Shown one piece after another: positions 2,575-57,608 of a stretch of 64,000 nucleotides of DNA (position 1 is the stretch's first letter; each line of letters opens with the position of its first letter). The notes beneath the pieces were generated by a model. That model was not told the origin of the DNA, made no database searches, and worked only from the letters and a program-made list of their open reading frames with translations. The DNA lies in contig NZ_CP042163.1 in the NCBI RefSeq assembly GCF_007725405.1, positions 3,286,001-3,350,000 on the forward strand, in the 5' to 3' direction. This DNA is from Shouchella miscanthi. Lineage in GTDB: Bacteria > Bacillota > Bacilli > Bacillales > Bacillaceae_D. The translations under genes and the position numbers were made by a program.

Positions 2575-2992
2575 CGGACGATTCAAATTGATGAGTTTGT
2601 TCTAGGAGAACTCAAAACCCTTAAGAAGATCATGAATGAGTACAAGCTCAGAAAAGGTAAAGAGTATAACGATCAAGGGTTTATATTTGTAGACACGAAT
2701 AGAAAGCCCGGTTACCCAATGATTATTAAAACTGTCGGTCGTAGAATAAAACGAATTTTAAAATTAGCTCAGTTGGATGAATCACTTACCCCCTTACTCT
2801 CCAAGACTTACCCATACCTCTTTATTAGCTGAGGCTGGTGTTTCTCTTGAAGAGATCATGGAACGATTAGGACATAAGAATGATTCAGTCACAAGAGACG
2901 TTTATCTACACGTAACAAAATCACGCAAAAAAGAGGCTGCTGTAAAGTTCAGCAACCTCATGGATAGTGTAAGAAATAAAAATTCGGGGTAG
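2575..2992 (+). pseudogene. Tyrosine integrase C-terminal remnant, frameshifted
   Basis: The first frame reads RTIQIDE... up to about 2795, then the reading shifts to a second frame carrying LTHTSLLAEAG, IMERLGHKN and VYLHVTKSRKK. These are the C-terminal motifs of phage tyrosine recombinases (H-x-x-R-H region, LGH, catalytic Tyr). The usual LRHTH has become RLTHT, and the N-terminal half is missing. The pseudogene sits 90 bases before an attachment core, just as the intact integrase does at the other end. Confidence 0.85.
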
Positions 2993-3080: not shown

Positions 3081-3098
3081 TTACATCATGCCGCCCAT
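3081..3098. other. attL core of the intact prophage
   Basis: The 18 bases TTACATCATGCCGCCCAT are identical to 55938-55955, which is the end of groEL (reverse strand: Met-Gly-Gly-Met-Met-stop). The 22 bases before it are also similar (13 of 22 by eye). The site separates the remnant element on the left from the intact prophage on the right. Confidence 0.85.
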
Positions 3099-3231: not shown

Positions 3232-3459
3232 TTATAAACTAACATTATGCAATCCAATACTACCCTTAAAATAAGCAAACGACTCATCAATTATTTTTCT
3301 CATCTTTGCGTCATCTTTTATTTGTAAATCTTCAATATTCTTTATAACCTTGATCCAAACAGTTTCCAGTGTTTCATCGTTATCTGTTTCTTTGTATAAA
3401 CTGTATAAAGACTTCGCTTCAACCAGTCTCCCCCTCACCTTGTCTATTTTAATCTTCAT
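3232..3459 (-). CDS. Hypothetical protein downstream of aimP
   Basis: A 75-residue mostly helical, charged protein. The ATG is preceded by GAGGACC at good spacing. It overlaps the end of the preceding gene, so the two are translationally coupled. In phages with arbitrium loci the gene(s) after aimP form the aimX region; whether this protein or its RNA does that job cannot be seen from sequence. Confidence 0.6.
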   Translation of the reverse strand: MKIKIDKVRGRLVEAKSLYSLYKETDNDETLETVWIKVIKNIEDLQIKDDAKMRKIIDESFAYFKGSIGLHNVSL

Positions 3460-3622
3460 TACTCGGTCCTCTATACAGATACACACTGCTAATCTCTACC
3501 CAACGATTAAAACCATGTATATCTTTTTCTGGGGATAAATATTCTGCGTATACTTTTTTATTATCATGGACAATAAGTTTCCCGGACTGGTTCTCTATAT
3601 CCCAAAACTTAGATAACTTCAT
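3449..3622 (-). CDS. Hypothetical protein, candidate aimX-region gene
   Basis: A 57-residue protein beginning MKLSKFWDIENQSG, with GGGGG 7 bases before the ATG. It is the first gene after the terminator and inverted repeat that follow aimP, which is where the AimR-activated transcript starts in known arbitrium systems. It overlaps the next gene. No family was recognised. Confidence 0.6.
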   Translation of the reverse strand: MKLSKFWDIENQSGKLIVHDNKKVYAEYLSPEKDIHGFNRWVEISSVYLYRGPSNED

Positions 3623-3644
3623 TGTAGTTCCCCCTTTTTTTATG

Positions 3645-3691
3645 TACACATATAAATAGGAAGATACTCGATTCTCATATGCATATGTGTA
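3645..3691. promoter_or_regulatory. Candidate AimR operator (inverted repeat)
   Basis: TACACATAT at 3645-3653 and its perfect reverse complement ATATGTGTA at 3683-3691 are separated by 29 bases. AimR of phage SPbeta binds short inverted repeats separated by about 25 bases just upstream of aimX, so geometry and position fit. A 12-base palindrome CATATGCATATG lies beside one arm. Confidence 0.55.
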
Positions 3692-3694
3692 TAT

Positions 3695-3722
3695 AAAAAG
3701 ACGTCGTTGTATTAGACGTCTT
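3695..3722 (-). terminator. Terminator between aimP and the downstream genes
   Basis: On the minus strand AAGACGTC pairs perfectly with GACGTCTT across a 9-base loop, followed by TTTT. It would end the aimR-aimP transcript before the candidate aimX genes. Confidence 0.8.
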
Positions 3723-3757
3723 CTTTAGTTGTAATAAGTATAGCTTTGTAGTATAAA

Positions 3758-3913
3758 TTATGTCCCTGTACCTGGTTGTGTCGGTCCGCTAAGTGGTGTA
3801 CTAGTAGGCGCTGTACCTGTTCCCGGTTGTGTTGGTCCCGCTACTTCCGTCAAAGTAACTGATCCAGATACTAGGATAGTCACAGCGACGATTGAAAGTA
3901 ATAACTTCTTCAA
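3758..3913 (-). CDS. aimP: Arbitrium signal peptide precursor (AimP-like)
   Basis: A 51-residue peptide starting at TTG behind GGGAGGTGAG. It has a secretion signal (MKKLLLSIVAVTILVSGSV) and a short C-terminal part in which GPTQPGTGT occurs twice, the second copy being the very C-terminus. Export followed by proteolytic release of a C-terminal hexapeptide is how known AimP peptides work; here the predicted peptide would be close to QPGTGT. It lies 14 bases after the aimR stop. Two copies per precursor would double the output. The exact mature peptide is an inference. Confidence 0.8.
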   Translation of the reverse strand: MKKLLLSIVAVTILVSGSVTLTEVAGPTQPGTGTAPTSTPLSGPTQPGTGT

Positions 3914-3927
3914 TTTCTCACCTCCCT

Positions 3928-5019
3928 TCACTGATATTCCGAAATTGCTCTTTCAAATAATTGAGCAAAGAAATTATTTCCTGATTGCTTCATTAAACCG
4001 TATCCTTTAATGATTGGTTTAATATCTTTAGTTGCAATCCCTAAGTAAAGAAGAGCAAAAGGAGATTTTTTATCAACCGTTTCTAAAGCTTTTCTTGCTT
4101 TCTCATTTTCTTTCCTTACTAAGTATTGGAATGCCAATTCTTCGTCCTTTAAAGATTCTATTTCCTGATATTCACCATGAACATTCAATACAAACTGAAT
4201 GTCTTGCTCTATTTGAGCAGCCTTACTACTTGAAGCTAATTTATACAACCTTTTTGCTTCTTTTAAATTGTGTAAAGATAGCTCTTTATTACGATACATT
4301 TCAGCATGGCCTAATAAATGATAAGCGCATGCTACTAAATAAATTGGCACAAGCTTGCTCTTCGTTACCTCTTTTGCATGCATAATTGCTTCGTCAATAT
4401 CTTCATTCTCGTAGAGACAAACAAAAGAATAATTCAAATGGTACTTAACCTTAAGCGAATCTTTTAAAAACCCTTCTTTCAAAGTACCTATCTTTCTCTC
4501 TACACGATCTATGAAAGATCTAATGTTATATTGATCATTACGGAAATGTATTGATGTTTCAATTAAGTCTAACTTGAGTTGGGCATCTGGAACTGTAACT
4601 CGTCCATATAGTTCGCGACACTTTTCCCATGCCACTTCCGGAGTCATGATGTTTCTATCCCTATTGAAACGGTATATTTCTACCCATTCTTTAACCTCAC
4701 CACGGTGATCTTTATACTCGGTAAGCAAATCATCCATTAACTCTTGTCTTTCGAAATTAGAAGCGTATTCAAGTGAATTAAGTATACCAACTGGCTTTTT
4801 AAGCGTTCTGCAATAATCGTCCATTACCTCTAAGTAATCTTCTTCTATGTACCTAAGTACAGACAGCGTTTTCGAGAATCTTAAGTCTTTACTACCTTTT
4901 TTATCAATTACATCTGATATAAGGGATTTTGCAATGCCTGTGTTATGTGTAATGTCAATTTGCTTATTTCCCTCTTTGCTTAACCACTTGTTTATTGAGT
5001 TAAAAAGTACTTCTGACAT
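3928..5019 (-). CDS. aimR: Arbitrium receptor AimR-like transcription factor
   Basis: A 363-residue protein with an N-terminal helix-turn-helix (about residues 8-50, ITHNTGIAKSLISDVI) and a C-terminal series of TPR-like helical repeats. The pattern DYC, LEYA and WVEIYRFNRD resembles AimR of SPbeta-group phages (family knowledge). AimR binds the phage peptide; peptide binding stops activation of aimX and promotes lysogeny. The gene is followed by a signal-peptide gene, a terminator and an inverted repeat, the expected arbitrium order. A Rap/PlcR-type regulator with Phr peptide is the nearest alternative. Confidence 0.8.
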   Translation of the reverse strand: MSEVLFNSINKWLSKEGNKQIDITHNTGIAKSLISDVIDKKGSKDLRFSKTLSVLRYIEEDYLEVMDDYCRTLKKPVGILNSLEYASNFERQELMDDLLTEYKDHRGEVKEWVEIYRFNRDRNIMTPEVAWEKCRELYGRVTVPDAQLKLDLIETSIHFRNDQYNIRSFIDRVERKIGTLKEGFLKDSLKVKYHLNYSFVCLYENEDIDEAIMHAKEVTKSKLVPIYLVACAYHLLGHAEMYRNKELSLHNLKEAKRLYKLASSSKAAQIEQDIQFVLNVHGEYQEIESLKDEELAFQYLVRKENEKARKALETVDKKSPFALLYLGIATKDIKPIIKGYGLMKQSGNNFFAQLFERAISEYQ

Positions 5020-5359
5020 AGGGACCCCATTTCCAGTTCGACTTTTTTAAAAGTTTTGTTTTGTCGAACATTTTAAACGTAACACTTTATACACACACTT
5101 TGTATTGGGAAAATTATAAAACAAAAACAACGTGTAATTTGTCGAAATTTAGTTTTTTATTACTATTTTTTTAAAATCTTTGATTAATTCAAGGTTTTCT
5201 TTGTTGGGAAACATTACCCTATAAAAATATATTATCACAAAACATTTGTTCGTCAAACAGAAAAATAAAGTGGATTTTAATTTTATAATTAACTACAAAA
5301 CGGATTATTAACAGACTGTAAAACCGTCCCGATATATTCTAGGGGCGGAGGGCATCTAT
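5020..5359. promoter_or_regulatory. Intergenic control region aimR / XRE regulator
   Basis: This 340-base AT-rich gap separates divergent aimR and an XRE gene. GTTCGAC at 5036-5042 and GTCGAAC at 5063-5069 form a perfect inverted repeat with a 20-base spacer just before aimR. Further TTGTCGAA copies occur near 5141, and AAAACATTTGTTCG (5239-5252) is a loose LexA-like or operator match. A TATAAT for the aimR direction lies at 5113-5118. Confidence 0.5.
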
Positions 5360-5656
5360 ATGGAAACATTTGGCGAACGACTAGCCTACATACGAAAACG
5401 ACATAATCTTTATCAGTACGAGGTAGCTGATAAGTTAGGCATCCATAAAGTTACCTATGCTAATTATGAGCAGGATAAAAGACAGATGGATTACGCTACT
5501 CTTGTTAGGTTTTGCGAGATATTCAATGTGTCATCTGATTTCTTACTAGGTATAATCCATATACCACATAGGATAGATGAATACAGCAAAGAAGAGGCTG
5601 ACTTTATGAGACGCTCGCTCGATGTATATAGAGAAGTAAAACGAAATAAATATTAA
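5360..5656 (+). CDS. XRE-family transcriptional regulator
   Basis: A 98-residue protein with a classical Cro/CI helix-turn-helix at residues 5-60 (YQYEVADKLGIHKVTYANYE) and a short charged tail. GGCGGAGGG precedes the ATG. It is divergent from aimR and shares its control region, so it may regulate the arbitrium locus or the neighbouring FtsK module. It is too short to carry a RecA-cleavable domain. Confidence 0.85.
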   Translation: METFGERLAYIRKRHNLYQYEVADKLGIHKVTYANYEQDKRQMDYATLVRFCEIFNVSSDFLLGIIHIPHRIDEYSKEEADFMRRSLDVYREVKRNKY

Positions 5657-5664
5657 TAAAAAGA

Positions 5665-5697
5665 AAAAAAGCGCCGAATGTGGACGCTTCTTTTTTA
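5665..5697 (+). terminator. Terminator after the XRE gene
   Basis: AAGCG pairs with CGCTT and is followed by CTTTTTT on the plus strand. It also lies directly behind the converging minus-strand gene. Confidence 0.7.
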
Positions 5698-6156
5698 TGC
5701 CAAGGCTCCGCCGATCCCAACTAGCAAATTCATAAAAATCGGCATTAGCTGGACCAGTATATAGCCGATACTGGCATTTTGTATCAATCCCACCCCACGC
5801 TCCTTTTGGTTAATCATAAACATCAACGCGCCGCCTGTAAGCATCACAAGCGCAATAGGATATGATAGTGCTTGGATCGCGTCAACAAGTGGCATAAACG
5901 CTTCTACGATGGTTTCCTTTGCGCTATCAATCGGACTCCATGCAGGAATAGCGTCCATTGGCATAGTCTCGGTTGCACTCGCATAAACTGATTTAGCTTT
6001 TGCATTGGATATAGCGATTGCGGTTGCCCCCGCTGCCAATCCGGTGCCGACTTTTATGTTTAGCTGTCTACTGGCAGCTCTTTTTTTAGTTGGCTTTGGT
6101 GGACAATCTCTATTATTTAAAAAATCACTGACTGATCCGACTGTTTTTACTCGCAT
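5695..6156 (-). CDS. VirB2/TrbC-like two-span membrane protein
   Basis: A 153-residue protein with a basic N-terminus, a first hydrophobic stretch (about 36-50) that ends in a signal-peptidase-like ASA site near 60, and two later membrane helices (about 94-114 and 126-150). This layout, a long leader and a two-helix mature protein, is that of VirB2/TrbC pilin precursors of type IV secretion systems. It overlaps the FtsK-like gene and is the last gene of a three-gene unit. The assignment rests on topology only. Confidence 0.5.
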   Translation of the reverse strand: MRVKTVGSVSDFLNNRDCPPKPTKKRAASRQLNIKVGTGLAAGATAIAISNAKAKSVYASATETMPMDAIPAWSPIDSAKETIVEAFMPLVDAIQALSYPIALVMLTGGALMFMINQKERGVGLIQNASIGYILVQLMPIFMNLLVGIGGALA

Positions 6157-7348
6157 GCTCTACCACTCCCTCGATATAATCATTTTCTATCATCGGTGTT
6201 TGCACAATGTATTTGCGGTCTGTCAGGTAAACACCACGACCTTTTATAAATGGCAGGTGTGCAGCATCCGTTATCCCCTCACCTAGCACAACCTCACTCG
6301 CTTTATCAGTCTGCAGCTTAAAGCACAACTTAGCATCACAGTTTTGCTTAATATTGTGATTAAGTACCTCGCTGTATGGCGTTTGCGTGGCGTAGATTAG
6401 CCGATAACCGAGCGCCCCGCCTATTCGTGCTATACGTGATAAGATCACTTCACACTGGTTCTTGATTTGCTTCAGCTCTTTATCCTTTTCAATGCCCGGC
6501 GCCAACTCTGCTCCTTCATCAATAACGACAAAGTGCCTTGCCTTTATACCTGCCTCTTGTACGTTCTCGTAGCCACCTTCTTTCAAATAGGACATGACTC
6601 CATCCATTTGTACGTTGATTGCTTCCAGTCTCTCCAACGCTTCCTCTGCGTCGCTCGCAATACCTTGTATCTGAGGACATTTACTGTAACGGCTAAAGGT
6701 TAGACCACCTTTGAGGTCAATTAATGTAAATAAGGCATTATCAGGTTGATTAGATATAAGAGTCGTGATGGCCGTCTTTAAAAAAATTGATTTACCATAC
6801 CTTGTCGTACCTGCCACAACCATGTGCATGACCTTATCAAAATCGTGCTTTATCTCTTTATCCCTGCTTACACCGATCGGTACCGCCCAGTCTTTGCAGT
6901 TGTTTTCGTACGGAAGATACTCGGTTAAGGGATGATTATAGATCTTTACTTTTAATGTAGTGTCATAGCTCAACAAAACCTCTTTTTTGTATGTCTCTCC
7001 GTTCGTGATTCGTTTGATGTTCTGTTTTAACCCTTTGTTCACATCCACATTTTTAATGTTAGTTAACTTAAAGCCTTCCTTGGATCCATTGAGGCTCGTT
7101 TCGATTGCTTCTTTTTTCTTTTTAAAATCTGTGAAGGTAAGTCCTTCCGGTAATCGGTAAACGTATTCGGTATGGTCGCTCGCTTTCTTCGTCCTCAGCA
7201 ACTTTGGTGTATCCTCTTTTTGGTTGTATTTGATGTATAAACCACACTTTCGGAATATCCGGTCTAACCTCTGTTTGTCGGTATGGCCCTCTTTAAGATA
7301 CTCGGCACCTAGCCACGCTGCACCGCCTAACAACAGCTCTAGAATCAT
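6125..7348 (-). CDS. FtsK/SpoIIIE-type DNA translocase
   Basis: A 407-residue ATPase with an N-terminal hydrophobic helix, Walker A GTTRYGKS (residues 180-187) and Walker B FVVIDEGAE (about 268-276). The core matches FtsK/SpoIIIE/TcpA double-stranded DNA pumps. It lacks a gamma domain and multi-pass membrane anchor, as in plasmid and mobile-element versions. It overlaps a small RHH-like gene upstream and a pilin-like gene downstream, so the unit looks plasmid-derived. Similar genes occur in lysogeny regions of B. cereus-group phages; their role there is not settled. Confidence 0.85.
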   Translation of the reverse strand: MILELLLGGAAWLGAEYLKEGHTDKQRLDRIFRKCGLYIKYNQKEDTPKLLRTKKASDHTEYVYRLPEGLTFTDFKKKKEAIETSLNGSKEGFKLTNIKNVDVNKGLKQNIKRITNGETYKKEVLLSYDTTLKVKIYNHPLTEYLPYENNCKDWAVPIGVSRDKEIKHDFDKVMHMVVAGTTRYGKSIFLKTAITTLISNQPDNALFTLIDLKGGLTFSRYSKCPQIQGIASDAEEALERLEAINVQMDGVMSYLKEGGYENVQEAGIKARHFVVIDEGAELAPGIEKDKELKQIKNQCEVILSRIARIGGALGYRLIYATQTPYSEVLNHNIKQNCDAKLCFKLQTDKASEVVLGEGITDAAHLPFIKGRGVYLTDRKYIVQTPMIENDYIEGVVEHASKNSRISQ

Positions 7349-7626
7349 CTTTGTGACCTACTAAGCATCGGATTATATGGAGGCGGTGTTTGTGGTTTTT
7401 TAGGTGTTACCGTTGCTACCAGTTTAGTTGGTAGTACCTTGCGCTCTGGCTGTGGTGTAGCGGTGTGAGTAGTATCGGATGGTAGTAGCCCTTTCCGTTT
7501 GATTTCATCATCCAAGAGCTTTTTGATAAATCGCGAAAAAGATTTTTTGCCGATTAGCTGCAGTCTTAGAATGTCATCTTTATTTGTCTTGTTGAAGCTA
7601 ATAGATCGCACCCACTTATTACTCAT
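7345..7626 (-). CDS. Ribbon-helix-helix-like small DNA-binding protein
   Basis: A 93-residue protein. Residues 5-45 (RSISFNKTNKDDILRLQ..., SFSRFIKKLLDDEI) follow the strand-helix-helix pattern of RHH proteins, and the rest is a Pro/Thr-rich tail. Its stop overlaps the FtsK-like start, so both are probably one operon. A role as specificity partner that binds DNA for the translocase is an inference. Confidence 0.5.
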   Translation of the reverse strand: MSNKWVRSISFNKTNKDDILRLQLIGKKSFSRFIKKLLDDEIKRKGLLPSDTTHTATPQPERKVLPTKLVATVTPKKPQTPPPYNPMLSRSQR

Positions 7627-8137: not shown

Positions 8138-8166
8138 TTGTATACGAACATTTATTCGCATATACT
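8138..8166 (+). promoter_or_regulatory. SigA promoter with a LexA (DinR) box in the spacer
   Basis: TTGTAT at 8138-8143 and TATACT at 8161-8166 are 17 bases apart. CGAACATTTATTCG at 8145-8158, one mismatch from the Bacillus SOS box CGAACNNNNGTTCG, fills the spacer, so LexA binding would block RNA polymerase. The gene behind it is likely induced by DNA damage. Confidence 0.65.
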
Positions 8167-8197
8167 ATCAGTAACCTAAAACGAAGGAAGATCAAAT

Positions 8198-8602
8198 ATG
8201 GACATTAAGCAAGCTGTGATAGAAATTGCGAAAGCCGCACCTTTTGAAGACTTGGCCGCAAAGGAAATTGACAACCGTCCAGAGATAACAATACGCGTTT
8301 ATGTGATTACTCGTCTAACTAGAGAGTATATACACAATATACATGCCCAAAATTTCGATATGCACCAACAGATGCTTAAATTGATTGCTGACGATCTTTT
8401 CTTGATGAGAAGTTTCTTCCGCAAAATGAATATCCGTGTTGAAGACAATCCAAGTGAATCAGAGCTAAAATCACTACACTGGCGTTACTGGATAAATGGG
8501 CGAACAGGCACAGTTGGAGGCACAAAAACAGTATTAAAAAAGAATATTAAAGAAACCTTATTAAGATATAGAAAGCGGCTAAATGATGAAATGTCCTTTT
8601 GA
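8198..8602 (+). CDS. Unknown protein under an SOS-type promoter
   Basis: A 134-residue, mainly helical protein without membrane segments or recognisable motif; it begins MDIKQAVIEIAKAAPFEDLA. CGAAGGAAG precedes the ATG. The promoter 32 bases upstream carries a LexA-like box, so expression is expected when the prophage is induced by DNA damage. An antirepressor or induction aid is possible but unproven. Confidence 0.7.
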   Translation: MDIKQAVIEIAKAAPFEDLAAKEIDNRPEITIRVYVITRLTREYIHNIHAQNFDMHQQMLKLIADDLFLMRSFFRKMNIRVEDNPSESELKSLHWRYWINGRTGTVGGTKTVLKKNIKETLLRYRKRLNDEMSF

Positions 8603-15426: not shown

Positions 15427-15456
15427 TGAAAAAAGCACCCCAATCGAGATGCTTCA
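15427..15456 (-). terminator. Terminator after the internal recombinase gene
   Basis: On the minus strand AAGCATC pairs with GGGTGCTT and TTTTTT follows. It lies between the recombinase stop and Tal, so late transcription must read through it to reach Tal and the lysis genes. Confidence 0.7.
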
Positions 15457-16476
15457 TTGCACTAAGTGCTTTCTATATTGTTCTTGCTTGTATTCCTTTG
15501 TTATGTGAGCATATCGCAATGTTGTTTGCGGATTGCTATGTCCAAGGATTTCTTGAACCGCTTCTAACTTTGCACCATTATTTAAAGTCAAAGTCGCGAA
15601 TGTATGCCTTAGCACGTGACACGAAACTTTATGATCAAGATCACAATTCTTTGCTATTTTTTTGATCTCATCTTGGATGGTCTTTTTATCCATACGTCTG
15701 ATCGGCGACCGCTGCGTAACCATCAATGCAGGACAATCATCATTTCGCGATTTTAGATACTTGTTAAGGTGGTACATGGCTTTGAACGACAAGTAAACCT
15801 CTCGCTCTTTATCACCTTTCCCGACAACGTTGCTACTCATGTTTTGTGCATTGATATCAGATCGATCAAGAGAGTGTATCTCTGACAAACGACAACCAGT
15901 GGCGTAAAACACCTCTAAAAAGGCTCGTTGTCGTATCGTTTTACACGATTCCCTCATTAGTTCTAATTCTTCTATCGTCAACGCTTTCGGCATGCGTTTT
16001 TCAGTCTTAGGTGGATTTATTTTCAAAGTTGGATCACGCTGAATAAACTCTTCGGCGACAAGCCATCCAAAGAATGACTTTAACACCGATAGCTTTTTCC
16101 CAATTGTGCTCATTTTTCGATTTTCGTAGCTGGAAAGGTACGTTCTAATGTCCGCACTCGTAATATGCTCAGTCTGTTTGTTATGATGATCCATGTGCTT
16201 ACAAAAGAGCCTGAGATCAATGCCGTAACCTTTTATGGTCTCTTTGCTTCTGTTCTCAAGCTTCTTGGCTGAAAGGAACATCTCAACCTTTTTAGGTAAG
16301 TCTGACTCGACTTGTTGGGCTCGAGACTGTTTTACATGGTACTTGGATACAATAAATGACACTTTGTTTCTAAGCTTGTCCACATCAATCCCTGGCACAA
16401 GATCATACACAAGTGCAACCATTTCAGACAACAAATACTCTTGCGCGTTGACTTCCATTCTTGCTACGTTATTCAT
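15454..16476 (-). CDS. XerC/D-like tyrosine recombinase inside the tail module
   Basis: A 340-residue recombinase with a SAM-like core-binding domain (about 75-160) and a catalytic domain with the Arg in FYATGCRLSEIHSL, the box HVLRHTFATL, LGHSNPQTT and the Tyr of RYAHI. It lacks the AP2-like arm domain of the main integrase, and so is closer to XerC/XerD. It has its own promoter and terminator. Lying between fibre and Tal genes, it could be a separately acquired gene, a resolvase of phage multimers, or an invertase-like enzyme for host-range genes; none is shown. Confidence 0.9.
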   Translation of the reverse strand: MNNVARMEVNAQEYLLSEMVALVYDLVPGIDVDKLRNKVSFIVSKYHVKQSRAQQVESDLPKKVEMFLSAKKLENRSKETIKGYGIDLRLFCKHMDHHNKQTEHITSADIRTYLSSYENRKMSTIGKKLSVLKSFFGWLVAEEFIQRDPTLKINPPKTEKRMPKALTIEELELMRESCKTIRQRAFLEVFYATGCRLSEIHSLDRSDINAQNMSSNVVGKGDKEREVYLSFKAMYHLNKYLKSRNDDCPALMVTQRSPIRRMDKKTIQDEIKKIAKNCDLDHKVSCHVLRHTFATLTLNNGAKLEAVQEILGHSNPQTTLRYAHITKEYKQEQYRKHLVQ

Positions 16477-54646: not shown

Positions 54647-55849
54647 ATGTATTTTGAGACTGTCACCTTAAAATCCGGACAAACCCGATGGGTTGCTATG
54701 GCCGATGGACCCGCCGACCCAGTCACAGGCAAAAGGAAGCAAATAGCTCGAAGAGGAAAAACTAAGAAAGAAGCAAAACTAAAAGTTGAGAAGGAAATAG
54801 CTAAACGAGAAGATAGTGGCTTTAGTTCAAGGCAACTGAAATCAAAAACATTTGATCGAATGGCAGAAGAATGGATTGCCACATATGCGCTCTCTGGCAA
54901 AAAGAGAGGGTCAGTTCGTATTCGAGAAAAAGATATTAATGTTTTAAATCGTTCTTTCGCTAAGGTCCCAATTGACCGTATCACTCATTCTGTATACCAG
55001 AAATTCATTAACATGCTGCCCGAAAGATATTCATTAAATAGCATAAAAAGCATCAATGGAACAGCCGGTATGATTTTCAAATACGCATTAAGAGAACAAT
55101 TAATTAAACACAATCCAAATGACGGGGTTTCTATACCTAAACAAATTAAAACGGTTGAAGACATAAAGAAAGACCCAGTCGAAGAAAAATATTTAGATCA
55201 CGATGAATTAAATTTATTTTTCGAAGCTCTAACAAATAATGCGCTTGAATTAGATATGGAAAGATTTTATACTTTAGCCTTCTCAGGAATGCGCCCAGGG
55301 GAGTTGTGCGCCCTACAGAAAGAAGATCTTGATTTTCAAAACAATACAATAAGCATATACAAGACTCTTTATAACGAAAACAATAATATGAAGAGTTACG
55401 AACTGAACACACCAAAGACGATAGGCTCTATTCGAACCATCGAGATGGAAGAGTCCGTAATGAAAATGCTTAAATCATTAGTTAGGAGTAATGATGAGCG
55501 GAAAATGAGGTTAAGAACGAAGCATGATGATTTTCACGACAAAGATTTTGTTTTTTGTCGTCCTAATGGTTATCCGTATGTAACTAAAAATGTAGCTGAT
55601 CGTATGGAACGGTTAATTAACATGACCAATATAACTAAACATGCTACACCTCATATTTTCAGGCACACTCATATCAGTATGTTAACAGAAGCTAAAGTTG
55701 ACTTACCTACCATTATGGAAAGAGTCGGTCATGAAGATGTAGCAACCACTATGAAAGTTTACACTCATGTAACTAAAAAAATGAAAAAAGATGCTCCCGC
55801 GCAAGTATCAAACCTCCACGAGAACATCATCAAAAAAATTTCTTCTTGA
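54647..55849 (+). CDS. int: Phage integrase (tyrosine recombinase)
   Basis: A 400-residue integrase with an AP2-like arm-binding domain (1-55), core-binding domain (65-165) and catalytic domain: Arg in FSGMRPGELCALQ, HIFRHTHISML, VGHEDVATTM and Tyr in KVYTHVTKK. The gene is 88 bases from attR. It integrates the phage into the groEL 3' end. It follows the cI gene, as usual. Confidence 0.95.
   Translation: MYFETVTLKSGQTRWVAMADGPADPVTGKRKQIARRGKTKKEAKLKVEKEIAKREDSGFSSRQLKSKTFDRMAEEWIATYALSGKKRGSVRIREKDINVLNRSFAKVPIDRITHSVYQKFINMLPERYSLNSIKSINGTAGMIFKYALREQLIKHNPNDGVSIPKQIKTVEDIKKDPVEEKYLDHDELNLFFEALTNNALELDMERFYTLAFSGMRPGELCALQKEDLDFQNNTISIYKTLYNENNNMKSYELNTPKTIGSIRTIEMEESVMKMLKSLVRSNDERKMRLRTKHDDFHDKDFVFCRPNGYPYVTKNVADRMERLINMTNITKHATPHIFRHTHISMLTEAKVDLPTIMERVGHEDVATTMKVYTHVTKKMKKDAPAQVSNLHENIIKKISS

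Positions 55850-55937: not shown

Positions 55938-57608
<1,671 letters not shown>

Follow-up and report, generated by a model that had tools for sequence, protein, structure and literature searches.

The window, a stretch of 64,000 nucleotides from Shouchella miscanthi (contig NZ_CP042163.1, positions 3,286,001 to 3,350,000), holds a prophage of ~52.9 kb that is bounded by two copies of the att core TTACATCATGCCGCCCAT (Table 1). Directly at attL, where the original prediction had placed it, lies a locus made up of aimR, the gene of an arbitrium receptor; aimP, whose TTG start is found 14 bases past the aimR stop; a terminator-like hairpin; two palindromes; and a pair of small ORFs that are candidates for aimX. 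Upstream of aimR are two predicted promoters, P1 and P2, and the divergent gene of a 98-residue XRE regulator; 98-codon ORFs with the identical METFGERLA start also lie beside aimR in L084 and L078 (L numbers designate our collected loci).

The genes of the CI-like repressor and of the integrase are at the attR end. The repressor matches only HTH families and no S24/LexA-type domain was found in it, which bears out the expectation that it lacks a cleavable domain. The further claim that the arbitrium locus is far from CI holds for the linear prophage, in which some 50 kb separate the two, and fails for the circular phage genome, in which the prophage ends are joined and the aimX end of the locus (3232) is ~1.5 kb from CI, beside int. 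The CI region has a repeat of its own (GCGTAACGCTTAA-type, read from the sequence) that differs from the palindromes at aimP.

Table 1. Features of the arbitrium locus and its prophage, with positions in the window
Feature	Positions	Strand	Evidence or remark
attL core TTACATCATGCCGCCCAT	3081-3098	.	sequence read
aimX candidate 2, 75 aa, start overlapping candidate 1 stop	3232-3459	-	ORF list
aimX candidate 1, 57 aa, behind AAGGGGG	3449-3622	-	homolog in L009
Palindrome 2 of possible AimR operator, 18 bp	3645-3662	-	arm search, PWM
Palindrome 1 of possible AimR operator, 18 bp	3674-3691	-	arm search, PWM
Terminator-like hairpin after aimP, AAAGAAGACGTC-9-GACGTCTTTTT	3694-3725	-	sequence read; fold
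aimP, 51-aa propeptide, hydrophobic leader, TTG start behind GGAGGTGA	3758-3913	-	ORF read from sequence
C-terminal signal copy GPTQPGTGT, stop codon next	3761-3787	-	sequence read, codon comparison
Internal signal copy GPTQPGTGT	3812-3838	-	sequence read, codon comparison
aimR, arbitrium receptor, HTH and TPR-like helical repeats, 363 aa	3928-5019	-	profiles, AlphaFold2 model
Second Spo0A-box 7-mer TTCGACA upstream of aimR	5062-5068	-	pattern search
Predicted P2 of aimR, TTTCGACA-N21-TATAAT, includes TTCGACA	5113-5147	-	pattern search
Predicted P1 of aimR, TTGACG-16-TAATAT	5229-5256	-	promoter scan; layout in relatives
LexA-like box CGAACAAATGTTTT inside P1	5239-5252	-	pattern scan, 1 mismatch
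XRE regulator, 98 aa, divergent from aimR	5360-5656	+	family search
LexA-like box in promoter-like TTGTAT-17-TATACT before ORF 8198-8602	8145-8158	+	pattern scan
CI-like repressor, HTH only, 122 aa	54249-54617	+	family searches
Integrase, attR end	54647-55849	+	family searches
attR core TTACATCATGCCGCCCAT	55938-55955	.	in 3' end of groEL

The receptor and its relatives

The predicted AimR-like receptor with HTH and TPR-like repeats is well borne out. A profile search against the AimR and Rap/PlcR families, which the original prediction had proposed, gives AimR matches above curated cut-offs: 157.8 bits (cut-off 70) for NCBIfam NF038310, 'AimR family lysis-lysogeny pheromone receptor', and 84.5 bits (cut-off 26.7) for Pfam PF22871, to which phrog_1728 (6e-39) can be added. 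The AlphaFold2 model of the protein (pLDDT 89.0, pTM 0.86) finds AimR chains at all of Foldseek's PDB ranks 1-16 (TMq 0.65-0.79, at 16-18% sequence identity to AimR structures), compared with TMq 0.35-0.43 for those Rap and PlcR chains that appear in the list of 50 matches. A profile built from ten relatives matches four distinct sequences in the PDB, all of them AimR/arbitrium receptors; no Rap or PlcR match turned up in the Pfam, PDB-profile or NCBIfam searches. By its profiles and its predicted fold, the product is a member of the AimR family, and we regard it as virtually certain that the locus belongs to the AimR/AimP arbitrium systems.

A receptor match at E <= 0.001 is found in all 13 Shouchella genomes searched. 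Within the family, 17 of 41 genomes match a ten-row receptor profile (E <= 1e-10), and the single receptor protein matches 5 of 397 genomes of the order (E <= 1e-20), all Shouchella. In phages, tblastn of the receptor finds two records of a single phage, SpaA1, at 21.7% identity; the same search in plasmids found nothing. From 110 loci, 53 distinct receptors were taken, 12 of which, the window's own among them, score over 450 bits and constitute what is called the HTH clade below. The closest relatives of the window's receptor (L003, L007 and L008) are chromosomal and come from three genomes that include the window's own; in the receptor tree, the window, L003 and L007 group together with support of 100/100.

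A propeptide with a doubled signal

The aimP product reads LKKLLLSIVAVTILVSGSVTLTEVA-GPTQPGTGT-APTSTPLS-GPTQPGTGT, ending exactly with the second repeat, so that the 51-residue ORF, its place 14 bases after the receptor gene and its doubled motif are all as originally described. The hydrophobic leader suggests that AimP is exported. An NCBIfam search with the propeptide gave no family match. The two 27-nt signal copies differ at four codons, with all four differences silent and none changing an amino acid. Because of this, the doubling can be ascribed neither to chance nor to a fresh duplication.

Propeptides were seen for 10 of the 12 HTH-clade receptors (L043 lies at a contig edge and none was found for L013). 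In nine of the ten, GP[TS][QNH]P plus three to four residues forms the C-terminal end, the endings being GPTQPGTGT, GPTQPGGS, GPTQPGGT, GPSHPIIDT, GPSNPIQGS (twice), GPTNPPVDK, GPTQPIIN and GPTNPVDR; the tenth propeptide, that of L021, has the ending GPGNIIHPTT. Outside the HTH clade, propeptide endings vary widely. Four of the ten precursors are multi-copy (two copies in the window, L010 and L012, three in L011), and the 53 receptors taken together have six such precursors, the other two being those of L099 (GHNVPG twice) and of L062, from another genus (IPSDNIRVNS twice); signal boundaries and copy numbers were read by eye from propeptide listings. Copies 1 and 2 of L011 repeat the window's pattern, with four silent and no replacement codon differences, and the third L011 copy and the L010 and L012 pairs have one or two replacements. 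When copy number is mapped on a 14-receptor tree, precursors must have switched between the single- and multi-copy states three times or more.

A two-copy precursor of a signal unlike GMPRGA had been foreseen, and GPTQPGTGT does occur twice with no xxxRGA ending. The proposal that the signal is the C-terminal hexapeptide QPGTGT fares less well: no copy, and none of the ten HTH-clade propeptides, has lost the upstream G-P, which makes a hexapeptide unlikely. Since G-P is retained in internal and terminal copies alike, the signal is taken to be 8-9 residues long, probably an 8-9-mer rather than QPGTGT. There is a good probability that both copies are functional. Alanine precedes G-P in all five HTH-clade precursors that have an internal copy (L021 included), and glutamate is at -3 in three of the five. 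Signal-peptidase cleavage directly before the internal copy was considered and set aside in view of that glutamate.

Downstream of aimP

The hairpin that follows aimP is missing from the terminator scan because its loop is 9 nt and the scan accepts at most 8; the stretch 3640-3757 folds with z -4.2. Beyond it, the outer arms of the palindrome pair constitute an inverted repeat, TACACATAT-29-ATATGTGTA, for which a comparable 9-bp arm pair appears in 4.5% of shuffles (the window locus taken alone). Inverted outer arms whose two sides change jointly are present in 4 of 13 loci (TACACATAT/ATATGTGTA, TCACATTT/AAATGTGA, TTCACATAT/ATATGTGAA and TCCTATTT/AAATAGGA, with spacers of 29, 25, 28 and 28 bp). 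Among the same 13, no such repeat was found in L003, L007, L011, L012, L013, L021, L055 or L014, and that of L001 is at best degenerate. The palindrome pair ranks first when the window is scanned by a PWM to which the site itself contributed. Over the window as a whole, the loose palindrome pattern (up to three mismatches) is at chance level, with 29 matches against a mean of 38.5 in shuffles, and what speaks for an operator is therefore its location, its PWM rank and the way in which the two arms change jointly. SPbeta AimR binds ATCACT-25-AGTGAT and retains similar affinity at spacings of 23-28 bp, according to portions of PMC6458997 and PMC9232636. It is fairly likely that the double palindrome is the AimR operator.

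The two small ORFs that follow are without family matches (for candidate 2, PF20529 at E 0.024 is below that family's cut-off), and tblastn of candidate 1 in phages found nothing. Candidate 1 has a homolog at the same position in L009 (39% identity over 49 aa, E 6e-15 in a single comparison). L010 and L020 have another ORF pair at the aimX position, with 61% identity between them. The aimX candidates are of two types, unrelated in appearance.

Upstream of aimR: P1 and a LexA-like box

P1 has a LexA-like box between its -35 and -10 elements, and the same arrangement is found in six rows from four lineages (the window; L001; L010; and L009, L043 and L042 together). The P1-type stretches point at aimR from 235-255 nt upstream and read TTGACGAACAAATGTTTTGTGATAATAT in the window and TTTACGAACATAAGTTCTGTGCTATACT in L009. 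By our own grouping into nine lineages, four have a P1 with such a box, as against 4 of 185 control ORFs. Of 52 receptors, 5 have a stricter LexA pattern in their upstream sequence, and these 5 all belong to the HTH clade; among the controls the figure is again 4 of 185. (For the LexA and Spo0A-box counts, 52 of the 53 distinct receptors were used, L020 being dropped for its short upstream sequence; the controls comprise every ORF of at least 150 aa in these loci that has 300 bases of upstream sequence, with chance ORFs not filtered out.) The boxes of the host's own lexA (CGAACTTTTGTTCG, at -108) and recA (CGAATAAATGTTCG, at -141) genes are of the type seen in P1, the window's P1 box being imperfect on one side, with GTTT for GTTC. 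Among 36 CRISPR spacers of another Shouchella, one agrees with the L009/L043-type P1 promoter at 33 of 34 bases.

Single sites are at chance level. In the window, LexA-like sites with up to two mismatches number 10 against 12.9 expected and the promoter scan as a whole returns 10 against 10.2; in the genome, the exact LexA box is not enriched, with 9 strand matches against 21 for the pattern read backwards. The weight of the case is accordingly placed on the position, direction and layout that are common to four lineages, with the proviso that the aimR promoters share descent, so that their conservation is not fully independent. As read from the sequence, LexA control of P1 appears likely.

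A second predicted LexA-like box precedes ORF 8198-8602; its 14 bases are those of the host recA box, read in the opposite orientation. A search for the 134-aa product of this ORF in phages found nothing; the ORF, possibly SOS-controlled, may on a speculative view add an antirepressor-like function. These boxes bear on the suggestion that communication could be a main induction signal because CI is not cleavable. Half of that is right, in that CI indeed has no cleavable domain, but the two predicted boxes would give SOS a route that does not depend on a cleavable CI. Entry of SOS elsewhere than at CI fits a CI-like protein of this kind, and it may be through aimR that the signal enters.

P2 and a Spo0A-box 7-mer

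The Spo0A-activated spoIIG and spoIIE promoters are characterised by 0A boxes together with a long spacing between the -35 and -10 elements, and 21 bp is a long spacer for an ordinary sigma-A promoter. P2 has that geometry. In the 4.25-Mb genome, TTCGACA-N20..22-TATAAT has three matches, each at an HTH-clade aimR, and none for the backward control. Widening the spacer to N19..23 yields five matches, with the backward control still at 0: three are the N21 promoters of the three HTH-clade aimR genes and two have N23, one located in the gap before a convergent gene and the other inside a coding ORF. In the 13 genomes of the genus, the N20-22 pattern is found 13 times against 10 backwards; five of the 13 are at aimR and the other eight were not inspected. 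Because of that genus-wide count, the case for P2 is based on the window's genome and on shared geometry. The 0A-box 7-mer occurs upstream of aimR in seven of nine lineages against 14 of 185 control ORFs, and the P2 geometry recurs with other -10 letters in L009, L043, L042 and L010, and with one box mismatch in L013. No 0A 7-mer was found upstream of aimR in L012, L055 or L014. Read on the opposite strand, TTCGACA is TGTCGAA, the Spo0A core box (PMC3485338, in part). Spo0A control of P2 is a possibility that we put at somewhat less than even.

Alternative explanations

The receptor might be a Rap/PlcR-type regulator of host processes that is in a prophage by chance, given that AimR, Rap and PlcR all belong to one superfamily and that a sister AimR of 52% identity (L003, L007, L008) sits in a seemingly ordinary chromosome. 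The match to the NCBIfam AimR equivalog, the TM scores against AimR as opposed to Rap/PlcR chains, the PDB profile search with its exclusively AimR matches and the gene order aimR-aimP-terminator-small ORF lead us to reject that identity as extremely improbable. The double palindrome poses a closer question, since it might be the operator of another protein, either the 98-aa XRE regulator or CI, or else an RNA hairpin. Two tandem 18-bp palindromes resemble the operators of XRE dimers, the region does fold as RNA and, counting directly against the AimR operator, L009 and L020 have different outer arms in spite of an identical AimR recognition helix (a half-site TTC[AC][CT]AT would reconcile them). 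Yet L077 (L009) has no ORF of at least 60 aa resembling the XRE regulator beside aimR, and the palindromes occupy the position of the SPbeta AimR operator (PMC9232636 and PMC6458997, each in part). CI is judged an unlikely owner of the site, its region having a different repeat and the PWM finding no equally high score elsewhere in the window. Taken together, these alternatives are unlikely, and the AimR operator is the preferred reading of the palindromes. As to aimX, it could act as an RNA whose transcript in the circular phage passes through attP and continues in antisense direction into int and cI: aimX reads towards attL and int and cI towards attR, so that they are convergent after circularisation, and the terminator scan finds nothing between 3000 and 3240 on the aimX strand. 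That stretch folds with z -2.3, however, and with 1 of 200 shuffles as good, which makes weak termination possible; L009 has a terminator-like hairpin (sequence read) directly after its aimX ORF; and the ORF homologies between the window and L009 and between L010 and L020 argue for proteins. An RNA function is quite improbable and is retained as a minor alternative.

For P2, the chances are close to even that TTCGACA-N21-TATAAT serves as a promoter or an autoregulation site, has no more than a likeness to a Spo0A box and conveys no sporulation input. The paralogous promoters share ancestry; a conserved T[TG]CCCAAY motif, which may be the real regulatory site, follows both promoters; and the genus-wide pattern hardly exceeds its backward control. 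The host's spoIIGA has no near 0A box at the corresponding place: a scripted search 19-24 bp from a -10 returned no 0A-like 7-mer at up to two mismatches, which makes spoIIGA a weak control, and reading by eye gives GTGACA-N21-TATACT. Against these points stand the 21-bp spacing, which is that of spoIIG and spoIIE and long for sigma-A, and the retention of a perfect 0A 7-mer (by the consensus in part of PMC3485338) in promoters whose 21-nt spacers otherwise differ.

A proposed circuit

We consider it likely that the locus is an arbitrium system (aimR, aimP, terminator, possible operator, aimX-like ORFs) of a temperate Shouchella phage that works as follows. In the lysogen, LexA would hold P1 off; DNA damage would release transcription of aimR and aimP through LexA at P1, and Spo0A~P might, less certainly, stimulate it at P2. 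Peptide-free AimR would bind the double palindrome (3645-3691) and switch on the small ORFs (3622-3232), favouring lysis or induction. The exported precursor would be cut into two identical signals of 8-9 residues, doubling the signal output per transcript, and peptide imported from other lysogens would shut AimR and favour lysogeny. A damaged or starving host with few phage-carrying neighbours would thus tend to lysis, and one with many such neighbours to dormancy. The most comprehensive version, an arbitrium with three inputs in which LexA and Spo0A drive aimR-aimP directly and the doubled GPTQPG-type peptide vetoes lysis, and in which the phage, its repressor being non-cleavable, would sense SOS via its communication receptor, is offered as a tentative and rather doubtful proposal. 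For another phage group, the LexA-like box in the aimR promoter suggests an answer that is easy to test. Should the Spo0A box also be functional, the timing of lysis would depend on sporulation in addition to neighbours. With copy numbers from one to three, the GPxxP signals provide a natural series in which to study the effect of signal number and length on communication between phages.

Comparison with known systems

The window's locus shares with the arbitrium of phi3T and SPbeta the AimR fold and the order aimR-aimP-terminator-operator-small ORF (PMC9232636 and PMC6458997, in part), as well as a C-terminal signal and an inverted operator, here a candidate, downstream of aimP. It departs from them in its GPxxP signal in two copies, as opposed to a single SAIRGA or GMPRGA hexapeptide, and in a possible operator that consists of two 18-bp palindromes. 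Clade 2 arbitrium signals have six residues (PMC9232636, in part). The absence of an xxxRGA ending and conservation over 8-9 residues set the window's propeptide apart from the SPbeta group, not necessarily from the family. The LexA-like and Spo0A boxes upstream of the window's aimR are also distinctive: the five SPbeta-group upstream regions scanned have neither, and the six SPbeta-group/SpaA1 regions together have no 0A 7-mer and no LexA-like box within two mismatches. The P31 region of phage SpaA1/BceA1 has in common with the window an AimR homolog, with the 21.7% identity already referred to; unlike the window, it has an ORF annotated after P31 (P32) that is without a hydrophobic leader, a convergent XRE gene, and an upstream region lacking both boxes.

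Multi-copy propeptides and arbitrium are each already known. Several signals per precursor are a feature of RRNPPA systems (PMC9765709, PMC11343458, PMC5199041), with tandem signals in Phr-3T and Phr-105 (PMC11343458), duplications in Phr/NprX (PMC5199041) and repeats in 3 of the 11 atypically long AimR-associated propeptides of Table 3 of PMC9765709, as far as the available portions of these papers go, in which no repeated AimP sequence is shown. Like these precursors, the window's has identical or near-identical copies; in contrast to them, it belongs to a Shouchella phage AimR and has a GPxxP signal. The literature search found no paper on arbitrium in Shouchella or clausii, and a partial survey of the arbitrium literature, covering portions of PMC8612738, PMC12768286, PMC10075063, PMC11343458 and the reviews PMC12472986 and PMC13389391 among others, found no report of a LexA or Spo0A site at aimR.

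The chromosomal sister system

The chromosomal sister AimR (L003, L007, L008) has, like the window's, a P2-type promoter. It differs in its single-copy signal and the lack of a double palindrome, and L003 and L007 have no LexA box within two mismatches. The flanks L085 and L087 have neighbours in common and the downstream sequence of L086 is nearly the same; inspection of L085 and L087 by eye recognised no prophage, except for one possibly phage-derived ORF. The sister peptide is GGPTQPGGS/T, with the six residues GPTQPG in common with the prophage signal. From this resemblance it could be imagined, improbable as it seems, that within one cell the sister peptide acts on the prophage receptor, either jamming it or supplying it with signal.

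Elements at and around the aimR promoters

The arbitrium receptor gene aimR has two predicted promoters, P1, with a LexA-like box, and P2, and the motif T[TG]CCCAAY follows both of them; it occurs twice in each of six loci (the window and the related loci L009, L043, L042, L010 and L001) and once in each of L011, L012, L013 and L014. We know of no regulator for it. The P1 of some related loci is matched by a CRISPR spacer: an array in another Shouchella genome (L148, G010:C1:538825 region), with 37 repeats and 36 spacers in the stretch examined, contains one spacer of which 33 of 34 bases are those of the LexA-box promoter P1 of L009/L043-type loci, while reversing the spacers of this array as a control yielded no match.

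LexA-type boxes are also found elsewhere. The 14-mer of the host recA LexA box recurs in the promoter-like stretch ahead of a 134-aa ORF, of which L084 has a homolog with a similar stretch upstream; this ORF is possibly an SOS-induced antirepressor. On the 3' side of the propeptide gene aimP, promoter-like sequence in both L011 and L012 contains a box of the LexA type (GAACGTGTGTTC and GAATGTTTGTTC, respectively) and is directed at a convergent CI-like gene, making it a possible source of SOS-driven antisense transcription on the repressor.

Features of the window
Feature	Position	Strand	Remarks
T[TG]CCCAAY motif copies	5105-5111 and 5204-5210	(-)	
T4SS-pilin-like and FtsK/SpoIIIE-like genes	5695-7626		adjoin aimR
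134-aa ORF and upstream stretch	8145-8602		no recognised family
Integrase fragments	2632-2992		two frames; just left of attL
Second tyrosine-recombinase-like ORF	15454-16476		340 aa; among tail genes, distant from att sites; identified by eye only

Neighbouring genes and other loci

In L084 the T4SS-pilin-like and FtsK/SpoIIIE-like genes likewise adjoin aimR and, judged by eye, are nearly identical to those of the window; genes of L078 resemble them in appearance. The integrase fragments, of which 2777-2992 scores 27.9 bits against Pfam Phage_integrase (cut-off 27.1), may be remnants of a previous prophage that occupied the same groEL site. Elsewhere, the 2.6-Mb genome G003, of the same genus, yields 16 AimR-like matches, many of which are accompanied by a short propeptide of their own, and at L025 one receptor gene is followed by two different tandem aimP-like genes, whose products end in GNPPVNVGS and GGPPVHVGT.
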